This document shows, in pieces, positions 1 through 9,007 of a DNA stretch of 64,000 nt (position 1 is the first letter of the stretch; each line of letters begins with the position of its first letter). The translations under genes were made by a program, and so were the position numbers. The notes under the pieces were generated by a model. The model had not been told where the DNA came from and ran no database searches. It saw only the letters and a list, made by a program, of their open reading frames with translations. Source of the DNA: Sphingobium sp. WTD-1 (GTDB lineage Bacteria > Pseudomonadota > Alphaproteobacteria > Sphingomonadales > Sphingomonadaceae); assembly GCF_030128825.1 (NCBI RefSeq), contig NZ_CP119127.1, positions 4,577,501 through 4,641,500 of the forward strand, in the 5' to 3' direction.

Positions 1-249
1 CGCGACACGGCCGCCATTCTCCTGGACCGCACAGATCGCCACGTAGCCGATGAAGTCCGCGAGTTGGTCGAAACGACAGGCGATGCCCGAATCACGGATC
101 TGCACGTCTGGAAGGTCGGCCCCGAAGCCCACTCAGCGATCGTCGGCGTCGCTGCCCATCCGGGTGTAGATGCGACGGAAATCCGGCGGCGCCTAGTGCC
201 CGTTCATGAGCTCCAGCACCTTACCGTCGAAGTCGCGACGGTGGCATAA
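1..249 (+). CDS. Cation diffusion facilitator transporter, C-terminal end (partial)
   Basis: The frame is open from base 1 to a TAA at 247-249, so only the last 82 residues are present. The fragment begins RDTAAILLDRT and contains DARITDLHVWKVGPEAHSAI, the pattern of the cytoplasmic C-terminal domain of DmeF/CzcD-like CDF exporters, where His residues take part in metal sensing and dimerisation. CDF proteins exchange divalent cations for protons across the inner membrane. The membrane part lies outside the window, so the metal cannot be named. It fits the metal-resistance block further along, although that block is on the other strand. Its start and full length cannot be seen. Confidence 0.75.
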   Translation, partial: RDTAAILLDRTDRHVADEVRELVETTGDARITDLHVWKVGPEAHSAIVGVAAHPGVDATEIRRRLVPVHELQHLTVEVATVA

Positions 250-636
250 CCGACAGGAATGCAGTGATTTATCCCACATTTTCTTGAATCGCGAAAATGT
301 GGGATAAATTTTGGAACGCGTGATCCAAGCGATGAGATTTATCGCACGAAAGCCGCCTGCATCTCGCTACCTTCTCATCGAACACAGAGAAAAGCCCGGT
401 TCGCGGGACACATTGATCTCGTCATTCTAAGTTAACCTGAGAAGAGGCGATCGCCCTTGCGACTGAGAATGCGCCGGCCCTTACGGCCTTAACAGCCCAC
501 CTGGGCGCCGCTGTAGCCGAACGCATACGGCTTGCCGATCCTAATGACCAGCTGGCCTTGAAACAGCAACGACGATGCAGCACCAGCTCGTTGCATAAAC
601 TGTTGCTTTTTTATTCAAAACTGCAATAAGTGCACC
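250..636. other. Intergenic region upstream of the HTH-ietA genes
   Basis: This 387-base stretch has no convincing gene. It holds a near-perfect palindrome just after the CDF gene (separate entry), a third half-site of the same sequence at 337-347, and AT-rich sequence shortly before the start codon at 637. Any promoter for the small HTH gene and ietA should lie here. I could not assign -35/-10 boxes with confidence. Confidence 0.5.
267..309. repeat. 17-bp perfect inverted repeat with 9-bp spacer
   Basis: The arms atttatcccacattttc (267-283) and gaaaatgtgggataaat (293-309) are exact reverse complements, separated by ttgaatcgc. A related half, atttatcgcac, follows at 337-347. The hairpin begins 18 bases after the CDF stop codon and could work as a terminator, but only a short T stretch follows it. 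The extra half-site suggests a protein-binding site instead, perhaps for the HTH protein encoded downstream. That role is inference. Confidence 0.6.
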
Positions 637-954
637 ATGCCTCGCCCAGCCCGCAAATCAGACGCCGACCTTGCCGCCCAGGTCGATGCACACCTCAAAA
701 ATCAGGGCATTTCGGCGACAAAACTGGCGAAAAGCTTGAATATTAGCGTTAGCACTTTGACCCGCTCGATGAAGCTCAAAGAATTTTCAAAAGGCCTAAG
801 TGAAAAACTCTCTAAGGAGCTCGATGGAAATTATGAGAACCCTGTCGAATCGTTGCATAAAGCATTGCATATTCTGGCAGAGGTGGATAGAATTCGAAGC
901 GAAGTAGAAATGACTGTCCGTAGAGCATTGAACCGCCTAGAGGCCGCGCGGTAG
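637..954 (+). CDS. Small helix-turn-helix protein upstream of ietA
   Basis: A 105-residue basic protein. Residues about 24-46 (GISATKLAKSLNISVSTLTRS) have the spacing of a helix-turn-helix, followed by a charged helical tail with EVDRIRSEVEMTVRRAL, likely to pack as a dimer. The gene ends 10 bases before the AAA+ ATPase start, so the two are probably co-transcribed. A DNA-binding regulator of the defence operon is the simplest reading; an accessory subunit of the system is also possible. I recognise no named family. Its AT content is higher than that of the core genes in the window, in keeping with transfer. Confidence 0.65.
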   Translation: MPRPARKSDADLAAQVDAHLKNQGISATKLAKSLNISVSTLTRSMKLKEFSKGLSEKLSKELDGNYENPVESLHKALHILAEVDRIRSEVEMTVRRALNRLEAAR

Positions 955-964
955 GAGTCTGAAG

Positions 965-1705
965 ATGGCGAGCAGCAAGCAACTCATCGGAATGATCCGC
1001 AGTCACGCCGCAGGGGACGATTCTCGTTTCTTGGCCATCGCGGAACACATCGCACTTGACGCTGAGAAAGCTGGCCGAACACGAATGGCCGGCGAACTTC
1101 TCGGTCTGATCAAGAACTTGCGCGCCGAAACCGAGACGCGTCGACCAGCGACCCGACCCACACCCATTTCGGCACCGCGCGGTGAACTCGCCGGACTGAT
1201 GCGGGCCGCCTATCCCGAGGCGCGCCTTTCGGATCTAATCTTGCCCGAGTCGCTTGATGCACGCATCCGCAGTATCGTTCGGGAACACAACGCCCGTGAG
1301 ACCTTGGCAGAGCACGGCCTCACTCCGCGCCGAAAAATCCTACTTTCCGGCCCCCCGGGGACGGGCAAGACCACGACTGCTGCTGTACTGGCTGGCGAAC
1401 TCGGGCTTCCGTTGTTCACCATTATGCTAGACGGCGTGATCACCAAGTACATGGGTGAAACCGCAGCCAAGCTGCGCCTTATCTTCGACGCCGTCCAATC
1501 GGTGCGGGGCGTATACCTTTTCGATGAGGTCGACGCTTTGGCGACCAGCCGAGGCGCTGACAACGACATCGGCGAAGCTCGGCGGATGCTGAACTCCTTG
1601 CTGCAGTTTCTCGACGAGGACTCCTCCGGAAGCATTCTGATTGCAGCGACCAACCATCCCGGCCTGCTCGATTCAGCAATATTCCGCCGTTTTGATGCCG
1701 CCCTA
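965..1705 (+). pseudogene. ietA: AAA+ ATPase of an IetAS-type anti-phage system, N-terminal part, split by IS5
   Basis: This part encodes about 247 residues: a helical N-terminal domain (1-70), then an AAA+ core with Walker A GPPGTGKT (129-136), Walker B VYLFDEVD (183-190), sensor-1 ATN (228-230) and an arginine-finger-like RRFD (241-244). An IS5-family element enters after codon GCC-CTA. Removing the element and one TA joins this part in frame to 2557-2808 and gives one 330-residue protein, so the element is the only visible lesion. The neighbouring subtilisin-like gene supports the known ATPase plus S8 protease pairing of IetAS. A shortened product could run into the element and stop at 1870, but it would lack the small lid domain. 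Confidence 0.75.
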
Positions 1706-2556
1706 GGCGGCGTTGACAAAAGGGATTCCCAATCGGTGCGTGTTCTGATTCAAGGCTGCTCTTTGGGGAGCGGTCATGGATCGAGGGGATTTGTCGGACG
1801 CGGAGTGGGAGTTGATCGGGCCGCTACTCCCGTCCGAGCGTGGGAGGCATGCCCGACCGGCCGGCGATAACCGGCGCTTTCTCAATGGCATGCTGCATGT
1901 GCTGCGGGTCGGTTGCCCGTGGCGCGACATGCACGAGCGCTATGGCAAGTGGAACTCGGTCTATGTCCGGTTCCGGCGCTGGGCGGAGCAAGGCGTCTGG
2001 GACGCCATGCTGCAAACGTTGGTCGATCTGGGCCTCACCGACGACTGGCAGCACATGATCGACAGCACCACGGTTCGCGGCCACGTCTCGGCAGCGGGCG
2101 GAAAAGGGGGGCTTGTGCGCAGGCTTTTGGTCGATCACGCGGCGGCTTTACGAGCAAGATCCACGCCCGCTGTGACAATCAGGGCCTCCCTGTCGGCTTC
2201 ATCCTTACCGGCGGCGAGGCATCGGACTATACGGCGGCCGACGATCTGATGAACCTGCCGCTGCCCAAGCCCAGGGCGCTGCTCGCCGACAAAGGCTATG
2301 ATGGCGACAGGTTCCGGGAGAACCTGCTCATGCGAGGCATCCTGCCCGTCATCCCGCCGCGCTCCAACCGCAAGGTGCCGGCCCATCCCGACTACCGGCG
2401 CTACAAGGATCGCAATCGTGTCGAGCGCATGTTCGCCAAACTCAAGCAGCAGCGCCGCATCGCCACCCGCTACGACAAGACCGTCCTGTCGTTCGAGAGC
2501 TTCATCAACCTCGCTGCCGCGCGACTATGGCTGAAAGCTTTTGTCAACACCGCCTA
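1704..2556 (+). mobile_element. IS5-family (IS427-like) element, copy 1
   Basis: The element spans 1706-2554 (849 bp), with TA on both sides (1704-1705 and 2555-2556). Its ends, ggcggcgttgacaaaag on the left and cttttgtcaacaccgcc on the right, are inverted repeats with one mismatch. It encodes a two-frame DDE transposase. It appears identical to the copy at 7079-7927 and has the same orientation. It interrupts ietA, whose frame is restored by its precise removal. Confidence 0.9.
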
Positions 2557-2557
2557 G
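1776..2557 (+). CDS. IS5-family transposase, two overlapping frames (copy 1)
   Basis: The first frame starts at ATG 1776 after a ggggag ribosome site and reads to 2249. It carries the N-terminal domain and the first catalytic Asp in MIDSTTVRGH. The second frame continues to 2557 with the remaining DDE fold: SRGGFTSKIHARCDNQG, LLADKGYDGDR (second Asp) and RYKDRNRVERMFAKLKQ (Glu). The frames overlap at an A4G6 run (2102-2111), where a -1 shift joins GKGG to the second frame. Programmed shifting at such runs is known for IS427-group elements. The stop codon TAG uses the duplicated TA plus the next host G, so the element itself has no stop. Confidence 0.85.
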
Positions 2558-2808
2558 TCTACCAGCATCCGACGTCCGATGAGATCGAACGCGTCCTATG
2601 TTCTAATCTCCTGCAGTTCGACTTAGGCAACATCAACTGGCATGAGTTAACGTCCGTTGCGCTGGGCCTCAGCCAAGCGGACCTTGCAGCTGCCGCGAAA
2701 GATGCAGCCCGCCATGCTGTACTCGACAATGACGGTGTCATCGAAACGGCAAATCTCTCGAGGTCGATAAGCGATCGAGCACAACTTCATTCGAACTCAA
2801 GCACTTGA
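2555..2808 (+). pseudogene. ietA: AAA+ ATPase (IetA), C-terminal part after the IS5 element
   Basis: About 83 codons continue the ATPase after the element. The text begins VYQHPTSDEIERVLCSN and includes LGLSQADLAAAAKDAARHAV, the helical lid pattern typical of the end of AAA+ modules. The frame matches 965-1705 once the element and one TA are removed. There is no start or ribosome site of its own, so it is not expected to be made. The ORF that covers it begins inside the element at 2527 in a different frame from the transposase. Confidence 0.75.
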
Positions 2809-2867
2809 AGCATTGAGCGCGTTGACCTTCGATCCAATGTGAGTAATCACATCGGAAAGGGGGCCAA

Positions 2868-3170
2868 ATGGCACGTTACGATCATATTCGTCTTCGCAAC
2901 CTGGGCGTTGCATCTGCAGAGTTCGCATCTCCCGACGTCGGACGTAAATCACGCCCGACGTTTGTCGAGCGCCGGCGTGAGCACGGTCAACGGTTGGCAC
3001 GGGATCTCGACCAGCTCCGCGCCATGTTCGCCAGTTCAATGGAGCGCCAAGCACTTTATGGCATTCCGGAGAAAAAGCGTGGCAGTGCGATATCGATAAC
3101 GTCCAGACCAGGGCAGCTCCTTGATGTCGGCACCCTTAAACTCGAAACCCGTGATTACTCTGTCCTCGGC
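2868..3170 (+). pseudogene. ietS: Subtilisin-like (S8) serine protease, N-terminal fragment, IetS-like
   Basis: It begins MARYDHIRLRNLGVAS after an aaaggggg ribosome site, 59 bases behind ietA. About 101 codons remain before IS21 sequence begins at 3171. The fragment includes EHGQRLARDLDQLRAMFA and GSAISITSRPGQLLDVGTL, which resemble the N-terminal domain of the large S8 proteases that partner AAA+ ATPases in IetAS. The whole catalytic domain with its Asp/His/Ser triad is missing, and no continuation is found beyond IS21. The family call rests on this N-terminal pattern and on the ATPase neighbour; no catalytic residue can be seen. Confidence 0.65.
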
Positions 3171-3280
3171 TGTTGATTGCCACTGAGATGTGACCCGGGG
3201 GCGCTATAAGTTTCCACTGAGAATTGACCCATGTTTCCCTCCCCTCCGGCTGTCAGTCGGAGGGTCTCGGAGTGATCGAC

Positions 3281-4170
3281 ATGGACTTACTCAGTGTGAT
3301 CCGCCGATGGCATTTCCGGCAGGAGATTTCCATTCGGGAGATCAAGCGACGGACCGGCCTATCGCGCAACACCATTCGCAAATACCTGCGTTCCGATGCG
3401 GTGGAGCCCAGTTTCAGGGTTCCGGTGCGCCCCAGCAAACTCGATCCCTTCGCGGACAAGCTGTCGGCTTGGCTGCGGGTGGAATCCAAGAAATCCCGCA
3501 AGCAGAAGCGGACCGCCAAGCAACTCTACGTGGATCTGGTGGAGCTGGGTTACGATGGCTCCTATAACCGGGTGGCCGCCTTTGCCCGCCGATGGCGGAC
3601 CGAGCTTCAGTATGAACAGCAGACCAGCGGACGCGGGACGTTCGTTCCTTTGGCTTTCCAGCCTGGCGAGGCCTTCCAGTTCGACTGGAGCGAGGATTAT
3701 GCCGTGCTGGACGGCAAAGTGACGAAACTGCAGGTCGCTCATACCAAACTCGCGCATAGTCGCGCCTTCATCGTGCGAGCCTATCTGCTTCAAACCCATG
3801 AGATGCTGTTCGACGCGCTGACGCAGGCATTCCGGGTGCTGGGTGGTGTGCCGCAGCGCGGCATCTTCGACAACATGAGGACCGCTGTCGACAAGATCGG
3901 GACGGGGAAGGCGCGGCAGGTCAATGCCAGGTTCGCTGCAATGGCCAGCCATTATCTTTTCGAGACGGATTTCTGCAATCCGGCTTCTGGCTGGGAGAAG
4001 GGGCAGGTCGAGAAGAATGTCCAGGATGCCCGGCGCCGGTTGTGGCAACCGATGCCCAGTTTCCCTGGTCTGGCTGAACTGAACGCTTGGCTGGAAGCTC
4101 AATGCATCGCCCAATGGAGCGAGATCCAGCATGGCGCCATGCCCGGCACTGTGGCCGATGTGCATGCCCA
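3281..4170 (+). pseudogene. istA: IS21 transposase IstA, N-terminal part, interrupted
   Basis: I chose ATG 3281 (MDLLSVIRRWHFRQEISIRE), which follows a cggag ribosome site; an upstream TTG at 3224 is in frame but less likely. The fragment has an HTH (SIREIKRRTGLSRNTIRKYL) and the integrase-like catalytic core, with Asp in FQFDWSED, Asp in GIFDNMRTAV and Glu in WEKGQVEKNV. An IS256-family element enters at 4171. Deleting 1322 bp plus one 8-bp repeat puts this part in the same frame as 5501-6131, so istA was intact before that insertion. IstA is the strand-transfer enzyme, with IstB as its ATPase partner. Confidence 0.85.
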
Positions 4171-5492
4171 GGGACTGTCAGGATTTCCGTGTGCGGCCGG
4201 GCGGTTGATCATCAGGCCGCCATGGCTCTGATGAAACGTTCGCCGAAGATCACGGCAAATTGCGCCTTCGCCATGGTCCACTCACGTGGTGGCATCTTCC
4301 ACTCTTTCTCCGACCGATTCAAGATCAGGTAGAGCAGCTTGGTGGCGGCCTCGTCGCTGGGGAAGTGTCCCCTGGCCCTGACAGCCCGCCTGAGCTTCGA
4401 GTTCAAAGCTTCGATGGCGTTCGTAGTGTAGATGATCCGGCGGACCTCGTCGGGGAACGCAAAAAACGGGATCACCTCGCCCCAGGCGCGCCGCCAGCTC
4501 TGGCCGATGGCGGGATAGCGCTGCCCCCAAGGGCCAGCCTCAAATGCTGTCAGCGCCTTTTCGGCGGCATCTGCGTCGGTGGCACGGTAAATCTCCTTGA
4601 GCGCGCTGGCGAGGTTCTTTCGGTCCTTCCAGGAGACGAAGTCCATCGAGTTGCGCAGCAGGTGAACGATGCAGGTCTGGACGATCGCATCGGGGAACAC
4701 TGCGGTGATCGCATCGGGAAAGCCCTTCAGGCCGTCAACGACGGCCAGCAGGATGTCTTCAACGCCACGGTTGCGAAGCTCGTTCATCACCCGAAGCCAG
4801 AACTTGGCACCCTCATTCTGCTCGAGCCACAAGCCGAGCACCTCCTTTGCGCCGTCGGCGCGGACGCCCAGCGCAATGTGGATCGCCTTGTTGCGCACCA
4901 TGCCCTCGTCGCGGATCTTGACCCGGATCGCGTCGAAGAAGACCAGCGGGTAAACCGGATCGAGCGGCCGCTGCTGCCAAGTGGCGACCTCATCGAGCAC
5001 GGCGTCGGTCACCGTGCTAATCAAATCGGGTGAGACGTCGATGCCGTATAGATCGTGCAGGTGCCTGGTGATCTCGCGGGTGCTCATGCCGCGCGCGTAC
5101 ATCGACACGATCTTGTCGTCGAAGCCGGGAAAGCGGCGTTGATACTTGGCGATCAACTGCGGGTCGAAGCTCGACTGGCGATCGCGCGGCACGTCGATCG
5201 CCAACTTGCCGGTGTCGGTCATTACCGTCTTCCGACCGTAGCCGTTGCGCATGTTGCCGGCGCCGTCTTCGCCAGCGAGGTGGTGATCCATCTCCGCATT
5301 CAGGGCACGCTCTGTCAGCGCCTTCTTCAGCGAATCGAGCAGACCGCCCTGCTCGAAGGCGGCACTGGCAGCGCCGCCCGCCAAAAGCTGATCGAGAAGC
5401 TCATTCGGTATGGCAGGTTCTTTGCGTCGTGACATAGTGGGACTCCTTGTTGCCCATTATGCCCGGCCGCACACGGAAATCCTGACAGTCCC
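4171..5492 (-). mobile_element. IS256-family element inserted in istA
   Basis: The element is 1322 bp with perfect 32-bp inverted repeats at 4171-4202 and 5461-5492 (beginning gggactgtcaggatttccgt). It is flanked by the 8-bp direct repeat catgccca at 4163-4170 and 5493-5500, the expected duplication size for IS256. The perfect repeats and the intact transposase gene point to a recent insertion, later than the IS21 element it interrupts. Confidence 0.93.
4212..5435 (-). CDS. IS256-family transposase
   Basis: A full-length 407-residue Mutator-type transposase. The N-terminal region includes NGYGRKTVMTDTGKLAIDVP. The catalytic residues appear in order: Asp in VFFDAIRVKIRD, Asp in LAVVDGLKGFPDAI, and Glu in TTNAIEALNSKLRR. 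The C-His motif CIVHLLRNSMDF is also present. The ORF fills the element between its inverted repeats and shows no frameshift, so it should be active. It catalyses cut-and-circle transposition of its own element. Confidence 0.95.
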   Translation of the reverse strand: MSRRKEPAIPNELLDQLLAGGAASAAFEQGGLLDSLKKALTERALNAEMDHHLAGEDGAGNMRNGYGRKTVMTDTGKLAIDVPRDRQSSFDPQLIAKYQRRFPGFDDKIVSMYARGMSTREITRHLHDLYGIDVSPDLISTVTDAVLDEVATWQQRPLDPVYPLVFFDAIRVKIRDEGMVRNKAIHIALGVRADGAKEVLGLWLEQNEGAKFWLRVMNELRNRGVEDILLAVVDGLKGFPDAITAVFPDAIVQTCIVHLLRNSMDFVSWKDRKNLASALKEIYRATDADAAEKALTAFEAGPWGQRYPAIGQSWRRAWGEVIPFFAFPDEVRRIIYTTNAIEALNSKLRRAVRARGHFPSDEAATKLLYLILNRSEKEWKMPPREWTMAKAQFAVIFGERFIRAMAA

Positions 5493-5500
5493 CATGCCCA

Positions 5501-6131
5501 GGAAGCGTCCTGCCTGATGCCGCTGGGCCGGCCCTTCGATGGCTTTGTCGAGCAGATCAAGCGCGTATCGCCAACCTGCCTTATCGCCTTCGACCGCAAC
5601 CGCTATTCGGTGCCTGCTTCGTTCGCGAACCGTCCGGTCAGCCTGAGGATTTACCCGGATCGTCTTGTCATAGCGGCCGAAGGCCAGATCGTGTGCGAAC
5701 ATGCCCGCCTTATCGATCGTTCTCATAACAAGCCGGGACGCACAATCTATGACTGGCGGCATTATCTGGCGGTGATCCAGCGCAAGCCCGGCGCCCTGCG
5801 CAATGGTGCACCCTTTCTCGAGATGCCCGAGGCCTTTCGGGAGTTACAGGGCCATCTGCTCAAGCGCCCAGGCGGCGACCGAGAGATGGTCGAGATCCTG
5901 TCCCTGGTTCTTCATCACGACGAGCAGGCTGTCCTGAGGACGGTTGAGTTAGCCCTGGAAGCTGGTGTCGCCACCAAGACCCACGTTCTCAACGTGTTGC
6001 ATCGACTGATCGATGGCAAGGCGCCTCCAGCAGCGCCGATCGATGCGCCTCAGGCACTGCGTCTGACGCAGGAGCCCGAGGCCAATGTCGTTCGCTATGA
6101 CAGGCTGAGGGAGATCCGCCATGCGTCATGA
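5501..6131 (+). pseudogene. istA: IS21 transposase IstA, C-terminal part
   Basis: About 209 codons continue IstA after the IS256 element. It includes KRVSPTCLIAFDRNRYSVPA and the beta-barrel-like region LRIYPDRLVIAAEGQIVCEH, typical of the IstA C-terminal half. The tail KAPPAAPIDAPQALRLTQEP leads to a TGA at 6129-6131 that overlaps the istB start. It has no start codon of its own near the junction and is probably not translated as a separate protein. Confidence 0.8.
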
Positions 6132-6900
6132 CCCCGCCAGCGCTGCGGTCATCGTCATGCTGCGCAGCCTCAAGATGTTCGGCATGGCTCAGGCCGCCGA
6201 CGAACTGATCCAGCAGGGCGCGCCTGCCTTCGATGCTGCCTTGCCGATGTTGGCTGGGCTCCTGAAAGCAGAAATGGCCGAGCGGGAGGTCAGGTCCATC
6301 GCCTATCAGATCAAGGCGGCCCGCTTCCCGGCCTACAAGGATCTGGCTGGTTTTGATTTTGCCGCCAGCGAGATCAATGAAGCGCTAGTGCGTCAGCTTC
6401 ACCAGGGCGACTTCATGGAAAACGCCGACAACGTCGTGCTGATCGGCGGGCCCGGAACCGGCAAAAGCCATATCGCAACGGCGCTGGGCGTCCAGGCTGT
6501 CGAACATCACCGCAAGAAGGCCCGCTTCTTCTCCACGGTCGATCTCGTCAACGCGCTTGAGCAGGAAAAGACCTTGAACCGGTCCGGCCAACTGGCAGAA
6601 CGCCTGCTACGCCTCGACCTGCTCATCCTCGATGAGCTGGGCTACCTGCCCTTCAGCCCATCAGGCGGCGCCATGCTCTTCCATCTGCTCAGCAAGCTGT
6701 ACGAGCGCACCAGCGTCGTCATCACCACCAACCTAAGCTTCAGCGAATGGTCCGGCGTGTTCGGCGATGCCAAGATGACAACCGCGCTGCTCGATCGGCT
6801 TACCCACCACTGCCACATCCTGGAGACCGGAAACGATAGCTTCCGCTTCCGCGCCAGCACCGCTGCGCCCAAAACCAGAAAGGAGAAGCCAACATCTTGA
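6121..6900 (+). CDS. istB: IS21 helper ATPase IstB
   Basis: A 259-residue AAA+ ATPase of the DnaA/DnaC clade. Walker A is GGPGTGKS (109-116), and [17 protein letters not shown] holds Walker [13 protein letters not shown] is the sensor-1 region and [12 protein letters not shown] the arginine-finger region. The start ATG overlaps the istA stop by 11 bases, the usual translational coupling in IS21. IstB loads on target DNA and activates IstA. It looks intact, but its partner is broken here. Confidence 0.93.
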
Positions 6901-6989
6901 ACCTGCCGGTCATCGGCAGCACATAACCCGTACCCACCCGGGTCATTTCTCAATGGAAACCCCGGGTCACATCTCAGTAGCAATCAACA

Positions 6990-7078: not shown

Positions 7079-7929
7079 GGCGGCGTTGACAAAAGGGATT
7101 CCCAATCGGTGCGTGTTCTGATTCAAGGCTGCTCTTTGGGGAGCGGTCATGGATCGAGGGGATTTGTCGGACGCGGAGTGGGAGTTGATCGGGCCGCTAC
7201 TCCCGTCCGAGCGTGGGAGGCATGCCCGACCGGCCGGCGATAACCGGCGCTTTCTCAATGGCATGCTGCATGTGCTGCGGGTCGGTTGCCCGTGGCGCGA
7301 CATGCACGAGCGCTATGGCAAGTGGAACTCGGTCTATGTCCGGTTCCGGCGCTGGGCGGAGCAAGGCGTCTGGGACGCCATGCTGCAAACGTTGGTCGAT
7401 CTGGGCCTCACCGACGACTGGCAGCACATGATCGACAGCACCACGGTTCGCGGCCACGTCTCGGCAGCGGGCGGAAAAGGGGGGCTTGTGCGCAGGCTTT
7501 TGGTCGATCACGCGGCGGCTTTACGAGCAAGATCCACGCCCGCTGTGACAATCAGGGCCTCCCTGTCGGCTTCATCCTTACCGGCGGCGAGGCATCGGAC
7601 TATACGGCGGCCGACGATCTGATGAACCTGCCGCTGCCCAAGCCCAGGGCGCTGCTCGCCGACAAAGGCTATGATGGCGACAGGTTCCGGGAGAACCTGC
7701 TCATGCGAGGCATCCTGCCCGTCATCCCGCCGCGCTCCAACCGCAAGGTGCCGGCCCATCCCGACTACCGGCGCTACAAGGATCGCAATCGTGTCGAGCG
7801 CATGTTCGCCAAACTCAAGCAGCAGCGCCGCATCGCCACCCGCTACGACAAGACCGTCCTGTCGTTCGAGAGCTTCATCAACCTCGCTGCCGCGCGACTA
7901 TGGCTGAAAGCTTTTGTCAACACCGCCTA
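7077..7929 (+). mobile_element. IS5-family (IS427-like) element, copy 2
   Basis: An 849-bp element at 7079-7927, apparently identical to copy 1 and in the same orientation, offset by exactly 5373 bases. It is flanked by TA at 7077-7078 and 7928-7929. The pre-insertion target reads gatTAGatc. It interrupts the minus-strand LCAT-like gene fragment. Identical sequence suggests both insertions are recent. The two direct copies could recombine and delete the DNA between them. Confidence 0.9.
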
Positions 7930-8219: not shown

Positions 8220-8368
8220 CTGAGTAGCTTGATGCTCGAAGGGCTCTTCGCTTCGATCGGGCTATCGCCTCGCGCTAATCAGACGCCCGCCTTCCTCTGA
8301 ACCTTTGCTTGCCCGACTCTGCCCTACATCTTCGAGATGCGAAGATGTAGGGCAGCATCACGAATTCA
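8069..8368. other. Region between the LCAT-like fragment and carbonic anhydrase
   Basis: About 300 bases without a convincing gene. It holds the possible small minus-strand frame listed separately and a strong hairpin at 8319-8355. A plus-strand ORF at 7965-8300 overlaps this area but has no recognisable domain and looks like a shadow. The promoter for the LCAT-like gene would be expected here. Confidence 0.4.
8319..8355. terminator. Hairpin downstream of the carbonic anhydrase gene
   Basis: The arms ctgccctacatcttcg (8319-8334) and cgaagatgtagggcag (8340-8355) pair perfectly over 16 bp around a 5-base loop. It begins 13 bases after the minus-strand stop at 8369. There is no T run on that side, so it may stabilise or end the metal-block transcript without being a classic intrinsic terminator. 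Confidence 0.45.
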
Positions 8369-9007
8369 TCAGAGCCAGCGAACCCGGCCGGTCGACAATT
8401 CGTACACAGCACCCACGACCTTCAACTCGCCACGCTCCTGCGGTTCGATCAGCATCGGCTCCGAAAATTTCTGCAGGCGTTCGACCATGCGCCGGACATT
8501 TTCCTCGACAGCGGTATCGACCAGCTTGTCTTCGCCGACATTGCGCTGAGCAGCCAGAACGGCCGGTACGATCGGCTCGATCATACGAGCGATGCTGCCC
8601 GGGAACCGTGTATCCTTCGTCACGACGTCGGCCGCAGCCGCAACGGCACCGCACTTTTCATGCCCCAGCACGACGATGAGCGGCACCTTCAGCACGGCCA
8701 CCGAATATTCGATGGAGCCCATGCCGGCGGTGTCCACGTTGTTACCGGCAGTCCGGACAATGAACAGTTCGCCGAGGCCGGCACCGAACAGCTGTTCTGG
8801 ACCAACGCGAGAGTCCGAACAGCCCACCAGCGTCGCGAACGGCTGCTGACCTTCTGCGAGCGCCAGTCGCCGCTCGCGTGACAAGTCGGCCGGCACCGGC
8901 GCATCGGCCACGAATGCCTCATTGCCGTCGACCAGACGCTGCAGGGCCTCGTCCGGGGTCGGTTGCGTGCTGATTACGCTTGCTGTTGCCACTTCATACT
9001 CCTTCAA
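8369..9007 (-). CDS. Beta-class carbonic anhydrase
   Basis: A 212-residue zinc enzyme that interconverts CO2 and bicarbonate in the cytoplasm. Zinc ligands and catalytic residues are visible: VGCSDSRV gives Cys63, Asp65 and Arg67, and VLGHEKCGAV gives His116 and Cys119. The length fits the prokaryotic beta class. It is the last gene of a long minus-strand run and lies 130 bases behind a bestrophin-like channel gene. That neighbour suggests bicarbonate handling, perhaps linked to pH balance or metal carbonate formation in the resistance block. The functional link is inference. Confidence 0.93.
   Translation of the reverse strand: MKEYEVATASVISTQPTPDEALQRLVDGNEAFVADAPVPADLSRERRLALAEGQQPFATLVGCSDSRVGPEQLFGAGLGELFIVRTAGNNVDTAGMGSIEYSVAVLKVPLIVVLGHEKCGAVAAAADVVTKDTRFPGSIARMIEPIVPAVLAAQRNVGEDKLVDTAVEENVRRMVERLQKFSEPMLIEPQERGELKVVGAVYELSTGRVRWL

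Follow-up and report, generated by a model that had tools for sequence, protein, structure and literature searches.

Toxin-antitoxin loci with a DNA-binding partner of the Xre/HigA/HipB type are known, and the ietA/ietS genes of pTiC58 were reportedly described as a toxin-antitoxin pair by Yamamoto in 2009. In annotation libraries such a pair is named IetAS (IetA/IetS in PADLOC, IteA in NCBIfam). According to the available part of the SGI1 study (PMC5006074), the homologous sgiAT genes form a toxin-antitoxin pair in which the protease is the toxin. Such a pair stabilises the plasmid or island that carries it, and the pTiC58 pair is cited there as the closest one. On the control of the pair, the same text suggests a need for activation. 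An AAA-ATPase/subtilisin-like pair is also found in Mycoplasma mycoides (TA132/133). A minimised mycoplasma reportedly did not survive deletion of only the ATPase gene, but tolerated deletion of the protease gene or of both genes (PMC8562856, citing earlier work, in the portion available).

The locus described here is from Sphingobium sp. WTD-1 and lies near the start of the window, that is, the whole stretch of 64,000 nucleotides that was analysed (Table 1). It resembles IetAS in its two protein families, an AAA+ ATPase and then a large S8 protease, in profile matches and in gene order. It differs in that its clade adds an upstream helix-turn-helix (HTH) gene with a common upstream site, and in that the window copy is broken in both ietA and ietS. 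With pTiC58 ietA/ietS and SGI1 sgiAT it shares the two protein families and their order; these pairs are set apart by their description, which includes no HTH partner in the available part of PMC5006074. The likeness to TA132/133 is that of the two-family pair, in a distant host and with no HTH described in the available part of PMC8562856. Xre/HigA/HipB-type toxin-antitoxin loci are similar in their small upstream HTH gene, with a middling PDB fold match over residues 7-65, but here an ATPase antitoxin is already present and the HTH gene is added to the pair as a third. Very probably the locus is a dead member of a three-gene form of IetAS (HTH regulator, IetA, IetS), which would be repressed by the HTH protein in relatives and which in the window most likely lost its protease first.

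Table 1. Features of the locus in the window
Feature	Position	Strand	Evidence or remark
End of cation-efflux gene (family name by eye)	1-249		start of window
TTGCATAAA	591..599	-	exact reverse complement of clade motif TTTATGCAA
TGCAA core	622..626	+	15 bp before HTH start; presumed operator
Intact helix-turn-helix gene, 105 aa	637..954	+	Pfam HTH_24, homologues in same place; stop 10 bp before ietA
ietA 5' piece, 247 aa	965..1705	+	PADLOC IetA PDLC04232 E 2.5e-62; PF00004 E 1.4e-30
IS5-family element, 849 bp	1706..2554	+	NCBIfam NF033580 on first ORF
ietA 3' piece, 83 aa, lid region	2557..2808	+	PADLOC PDLC02196 profile positions 250-325, E 9.6e-6
ietS remnant, 101 codons	2868..3170	+	similarity to L036 and L142 proteases; ahead of protease domain
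IS21-family element	3171..6989	+	cuts off ietS; istA split by IS256; istB 6121-6900
IS256-family element within IS21	4171..5492	-	8-bp duplication CATGCCCA
Second IS5-family copy	7079..7927	+	identical, same orientation

The ATPase gene and the protease remnant

The 105-aa gene, the two ietA pieces, the ietS stub and the IS21-family element follow one another in the same direction. The 5' piece of ietA carries what we take to be the Walker A, Walker B and arginine region. Translated separately, the pieces give 247 and 83 residues, 330 together, and their reading frames are open apart from the IS5-family split. PDLC02196 (PADLOC IetA) also matches the 5' piece, over profile positions 2-246 (E 6.6e-61), and the two pieces match consecutive positions of this one profile. 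NCBIfam IteA gave 165.9 and 24.1 bits on the pieces; its cut-off of 510 bits applies to the whole protein, of which only pieces are present here. The first gene is an IetA-type AAA+ ATPase by PADLOC in both pieces, and it stands directly ahead of the stub (965-2808, then 2868-3170). The original prediction, which had placed an 849-bp element within ietA and obtained a continuous ATPase of 330 residues on removal of the element and one TA, was correct in its coordinates and arithmetic, and the ATPase identity was confirmed by the IetA matches. Its figure of about 101 codons for ietS agrees with the 101 native codons, to which the end of IS21 (from 3171) contributes one Cys codon and the stop.

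The stub has no profile match in Pfam, PADLOC or NCBIfam, so that the profile comparison proposed beforehand succeeded for the ATPase pieces and gave nothing for the 101-residue fragment. A second gene unrelated to proteases is extremely improbable, despite this missing match, since the stub matches the N-termini of full-length S8 proteases adjoining IetA genes of the same clade. It is 35% identical over 101 aa to residues 1-101 of the protease at locus L036, and 40% identical over 102 aa to that at locus L142. The uninterrupted L036 locus, in a genome of the same family (G043), consists of an HTH gene (a 116-aa ORF), an IetA 66% identical to that of the window and an 828-aa protease. The last has an S8 domain (PF00082 E 1.5e-38; PADLOC IetS E 6.1e-37), which bears out the predicted subtilisin-like nature of the second gene. 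Among 99 IetS sequences, the 11 best matches of the stub belong to the same IetA clade (phmmer 1e-18 to 4e-6). Among 298 genomes of the family, the stub matched at E 0.001 in two, its own and G043, and a separate related-locus search with the stub returned no relative.

The catalytic residues D288, H322 and S545 (L142 numbering) are invariant in all 20 aligned relatives. Modelled with AlphaFold (mean pLDDT 80.6), the L142 protease has structural matches to subtilases, the best at E 3e-16. In the L036 protease the first catalytic residue is 281, far beyond the end of the stub. Therefore, loss of ietS after residue 101 leaves no catalytic residue. The S8 domain, present in L036, is absent from the 101 codons of the window, and since only these pre-domain codons were kept, the window holds a remnant of IetAS and not a working system. 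The locus is an IetAS locus, and it is dead.

The rest of ietS was not found elsewhere in the same genome (G000): the L036 protease as query recovered the stub only, and the catalytic-domain profile PADLOC PDLC02198 gave no match. Comparison of window 420-3171 with plasmids gave 98 records; the 15 matches listed cover the IS part only, and no intact near-identical copy was among them. Across the 298 genomes of the family there are 35 further ietA places, and at 34 of them an ietS ORF of 739-870 aa lies next to ietA. The sole ietS-less place, L043 in genome G011, has a 334-aa ietA ORF with no IetS match after it.

Two further observations concern the proteases of plasmid-borne relatives. On the megaplasmid of Methylorubrum extorquens AM1 (L084), the HTH gene and ietA are open, the protease ORF has 542 aa, and its similarity to IetS stops at residue 517 of a relative. 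On two Rhizobiaceae plasmids, a convergent CHAT-domain gene directly follows ietS (L085 7571-8738; L086 7583-8738).

Insertion sequences and order of loss

The IS5-family element in ietA is flanked by a TA duplication (1704-1705 and 2555-2556), and its ends are GGCGGCGTTGACAAAAG and CTTTTGTCAACACCGCC. At least 13 copies, 100% identical over 849 bp and including the two in the window, occur in the 5.67-Mb genome, a lower bound, since 40 of 113 candidates were scored. IS21 has at least three copies, identical over the 999 bases compared, and IS256 at least 11 identical copies; these are also lower bounds, with 40 candidates scored for each. It should be mentioned that the two IS5-family copies of the window (1706-2554 and 7079-7927), being in the same orientation, bracket the ietA 3' piece, the ietS stub and IS21, all of which would be removed by recombination between them. 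The identity of the copies is compatible with a recent burst and provides no date. The recent loss of function proposed originally is thus compatible with the copies and is not dated by them.

The IS21 element shows no target duplication at this locus. Of two other copies in the genome, one has a 7-bp duplication (L136, by eye) and one has none (L135). Since the duplication is missing, a deletion beside the element is probable, in which the rest of ietS would have gone together with other flanking DNA. Insertion of IS21 followed by this deletion would account for the removal of the protease after residue 101. The IS5-family copy split ietA. An exchange of flanks between IS21 copies was considered and rejected; the sequences beside the other two copies are not complementary to those beside the window copy.

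Perfect inverted repeats with arms of 17 bp and 16 bp lie at 267-309 and 8319-8355, each closely following the 3' end of a gene (1-249 and 8369-9007, respectively). They are terminator-like and have no T run. By eye, the region 8369-64000 begins with carbonic anhydrase and metal-efflux genes adjoining the locus and continues with core genes, those of ATP synthase among them. Perhaps the locus stands at the edge of an accessory region.

Which gene was lost first can be considered by analogy. Loss of the antitoxin alone is reportedly lethal in the mycoplasma homologue, and therefore the protease was most likely lost first; in the window, ietS would most likely have died before ietA. An ietA-centred survey of 123 loci, a sample picked by ietA, is relevant to this point. 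A full-length ietS ORF is present in 98 of these loci and absent in 25, of which six are cut by a contig end and 19 have ietS broken or missing (L209 doubtful). Seven of the 19 are near-identical Mesorhizobium loci, in which sequencing error is possible. In these seven (L180, L184-L188 and L191), ietS is broken in at least four ways (frameshifts, stop, deletion) and ietA is open. In the 298 family genomes, all PDLC02198 matches of at least 33 bits lie at ietA places except one (G134), which was set aside as a generic subtilase by eye. In 385 genomes of the class, an IetA match stands beside 15 of 16 IetS matches, completeness of IetA aside; the lone match without IetA (G500) aligns to a relative only from residue 295 onward. 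A full ietS beside a broken ietA was seen in none of these surveys, in which the numbers are small. The surveys, small and partly picked by ietA, fit loss of the protease first.

The helix-turn-helix gene and its upstream site

The ATPase/protease order of the two-gene layout originally proposed was correct, but the intact gene at 637-954, within the range it covered, had gone unmentioned. The product of this gene scores 22.3 bits with Pfam HTH_24 (cut-off 21.9), and its AlphaFold model has a pLDDT of 88.5. The HTH fold of an Xre/HigA-type regulator is present, and comparison of the model with the PDB by Foldseek gave no match below E 0.001. The ORFs ahead of ietA were scanned in 35 family, 4 plasmid, 4 class and 80 named genome loci, 123 in total, and a homologue of the window HTH gene was found in nine. 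A profile from these nine and the window gene, run on 1,104 ORFs that included the loci from which it was derived, added only L194 (E 1.2e-6; next 0.2). The stop codon of the HTH gene lies 9-10 bp before ietA, or overlaps ietA by 4 bp, in all ten HTH-bearing loci. These belong to Sphingomonadales, Hyphomicrobiales and Roseomonadaceae, and three of the ten lie on plasmid records.

In a tree of 102 IetA sequences, the window and nine HTH loci fall in one clade of 12 members with support of 100/99. The HTH gene is directly upstream of ietA in ten of the 12, window included. The other two, L085 and L145, have no HTH gene. L085 retains a remnant, with 22 of 22 HTH residues identical to its sister L147, which means that the gene was lost there. 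L145, with a clade-type IetA (68%), has no HTH gene, no remnant and no TTTATGCAA-type motif in the stretch searched. A likely 13th member outside the tree is L249, on a viral contig. Its IetA is of the clade type (72%), and the place of IetS is taken by an ORF of 827 aa. The HTH gene is absent there, and no motif was found within the 480 bp ahead of ietA. Thus two of 13 likely members (L145 and L249) carry no trace of the gene, which shows that the HTH gene is not essential and speaks against a strict rule.

On viral contigs, 80 loci were kept and 64 scanned, the 16 weakest (L313-L328) being left out, and a dedicated HTH homologue in the same place was absent from all 64. Generic upstream HTHs were set aside (L277, L298, L254, L258, L259 and L260). 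That of L277 (1747-3801), which precedes ietA on a viral contig, looks by eye like a serine recombinase whose C-terminal part holds two HTH segments. In L271, an unrelated gene of the Xre type by eye (3691-4008) overlaps the start of an ietA of 50% identity. This may be another, independent case in which a DNA-binding gene is paired with ietA.

The ratio dN/dS of the HTH gene is about 0.2-0.5 in four pairs, a rough value because dS exceeds 1. For the pair L143/L144, of which L143 is an intact member from Sphingomonas sp. BK580, dN is 0.27 for the HTH gene and 0.07 for ietA. On sequence comparison, the HTH gene is evolving faster than ietA, yet under constraint. Its family is rare within the reach of the search performed, since a profile run against 5.8 billion proteins gave 12 matches with E of 1e-3 or lower, among them the cluster of the window protein itself. 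No match was found on plasmids by tblastn with the window HTH protein, yet L084, L086 and L087 carry diverged ones.

The HTH-bearing loci of the clade have a TGCAA core at -14 to -16 of the HTH start in all ten cases (-15 in the window), with starts set by eye from protein conservation and an inner start taken in L142, L084, L036 and L146. A 9-mer similar to TTTATGCAA, with at most one mismatch on either strand, is found upstream of the HTH start in ten of ten regions. The best de novo 9-mer, TTTGTGCAA, occurs in all ten upstream regions with one mismatch allowed, against at most five of ten in 200 shuffles (dinucleotide-preserving, or single-base where the walk failed), the motif being scored on the loci that yielded it. 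Of 114 other loci, 19 have at least one TGCAA/TTGCA core in the 75 bp ahead of ietA, and one of the 114 has at least two. A copy of the motif with one mismatch lies in the 500 bp ahead of ietA in eight of the 114 loci without the HTH gene. The site of the window is weaker, with the core and a reversed copy only.

The TGCAA site is presumed to be an operator bound by the HTH protein. It might instead be a promoter or leader element for RNA polymerase or the ribosome; the box is about 11-16 bp before the start codon, which could suit the -10 of a nearly leaderless mRNA. This seems somewhat unlikely, for no -35-like box is seen at a constant 17-bp spacing (by eye), and additional TGCAA or TTGCA copies in either orientation, found in six of the ten HTH loci, are operator-like.

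The locus could also be a plain two-gene IetAS remnant, its HTH gene an unrelated neighbour kept by common descent. The lack of the gene in L145 and L249, in 113 of the 123 fetched loci and in the viral-contig loci scanned would agree with this. It is distinctly unlikely in view of the tight HTH-ietA spacing across three taxa and three plasmid records, the upstream site common to the HTH loci and the protein-level constraint on the HTH gene. As far as gene neighbourhood and homology can tell, the gene at 637-954 is the third component of one IetAS clade. No description of an HTH partner of IetAS was found in literature titles and abstract openings, among which subscription journals are poorly covered.

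Control and role of the system

In intact relatives, the HTH protein would bind the TGCAA boxes before its own start and keep the operon low, and IetA would hold the protease in check. When this balance is upset by phage infection or by loss of the element, IetS might cut proteins and the cell would stop. In the window, the protease was most likely lost first, and nothing but the HTH gene with its site is still intact. It is also conceivable, although rather unlikely, that the fast-evolving HTH protein sets or senses the trigger; for example, it would repress the operon and be removed or cut on infection or element loss, which would switch on the ATPase and the protease at the same time.

The anti-phage naming of the locus derives from the PADLOC and NCBIfam labels. 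By these labels, the anti-phage role of the original prediction stands as one of two roles; the toxin-antitoxin role was overlooked (PMC5006074, in the part available). Since the pair has also been published as toxin-antitoxin, ietS should have died before ietA. That the role of the locus is stabilisation of a plasmid or island as a toxin-antitoxin system, and not phage defence, is a real possibility, though short of probable. The SGI1 homologue has a published role of this kind, in a study that also cites the pTiC58 pair (PMC5006074), and a toxin-antitoxin function is given for the mycoplasma homologues (PMC8562856), both in the portions available. In addition, plasmids commonly carry relatives (419 of 72,556 records at E 1e-30). 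The two roles are not exclusive, however, and the window holds nothing that would tell them apart.

For the dead three-gene IetAS, which is our preferred reading, three points seem to be of importance. A cut-down ietS escapes the profiles of three libraries, which reveals a blind spot of such searches. The likely order of decay, protease before ATPase, is a prediction for a toxin-antitoxin pair. Finally, a branch of IetAS that brings along a DNA-binding gene, together with an upstream site at a fixed place, would offer a direct handle on the control of the system.
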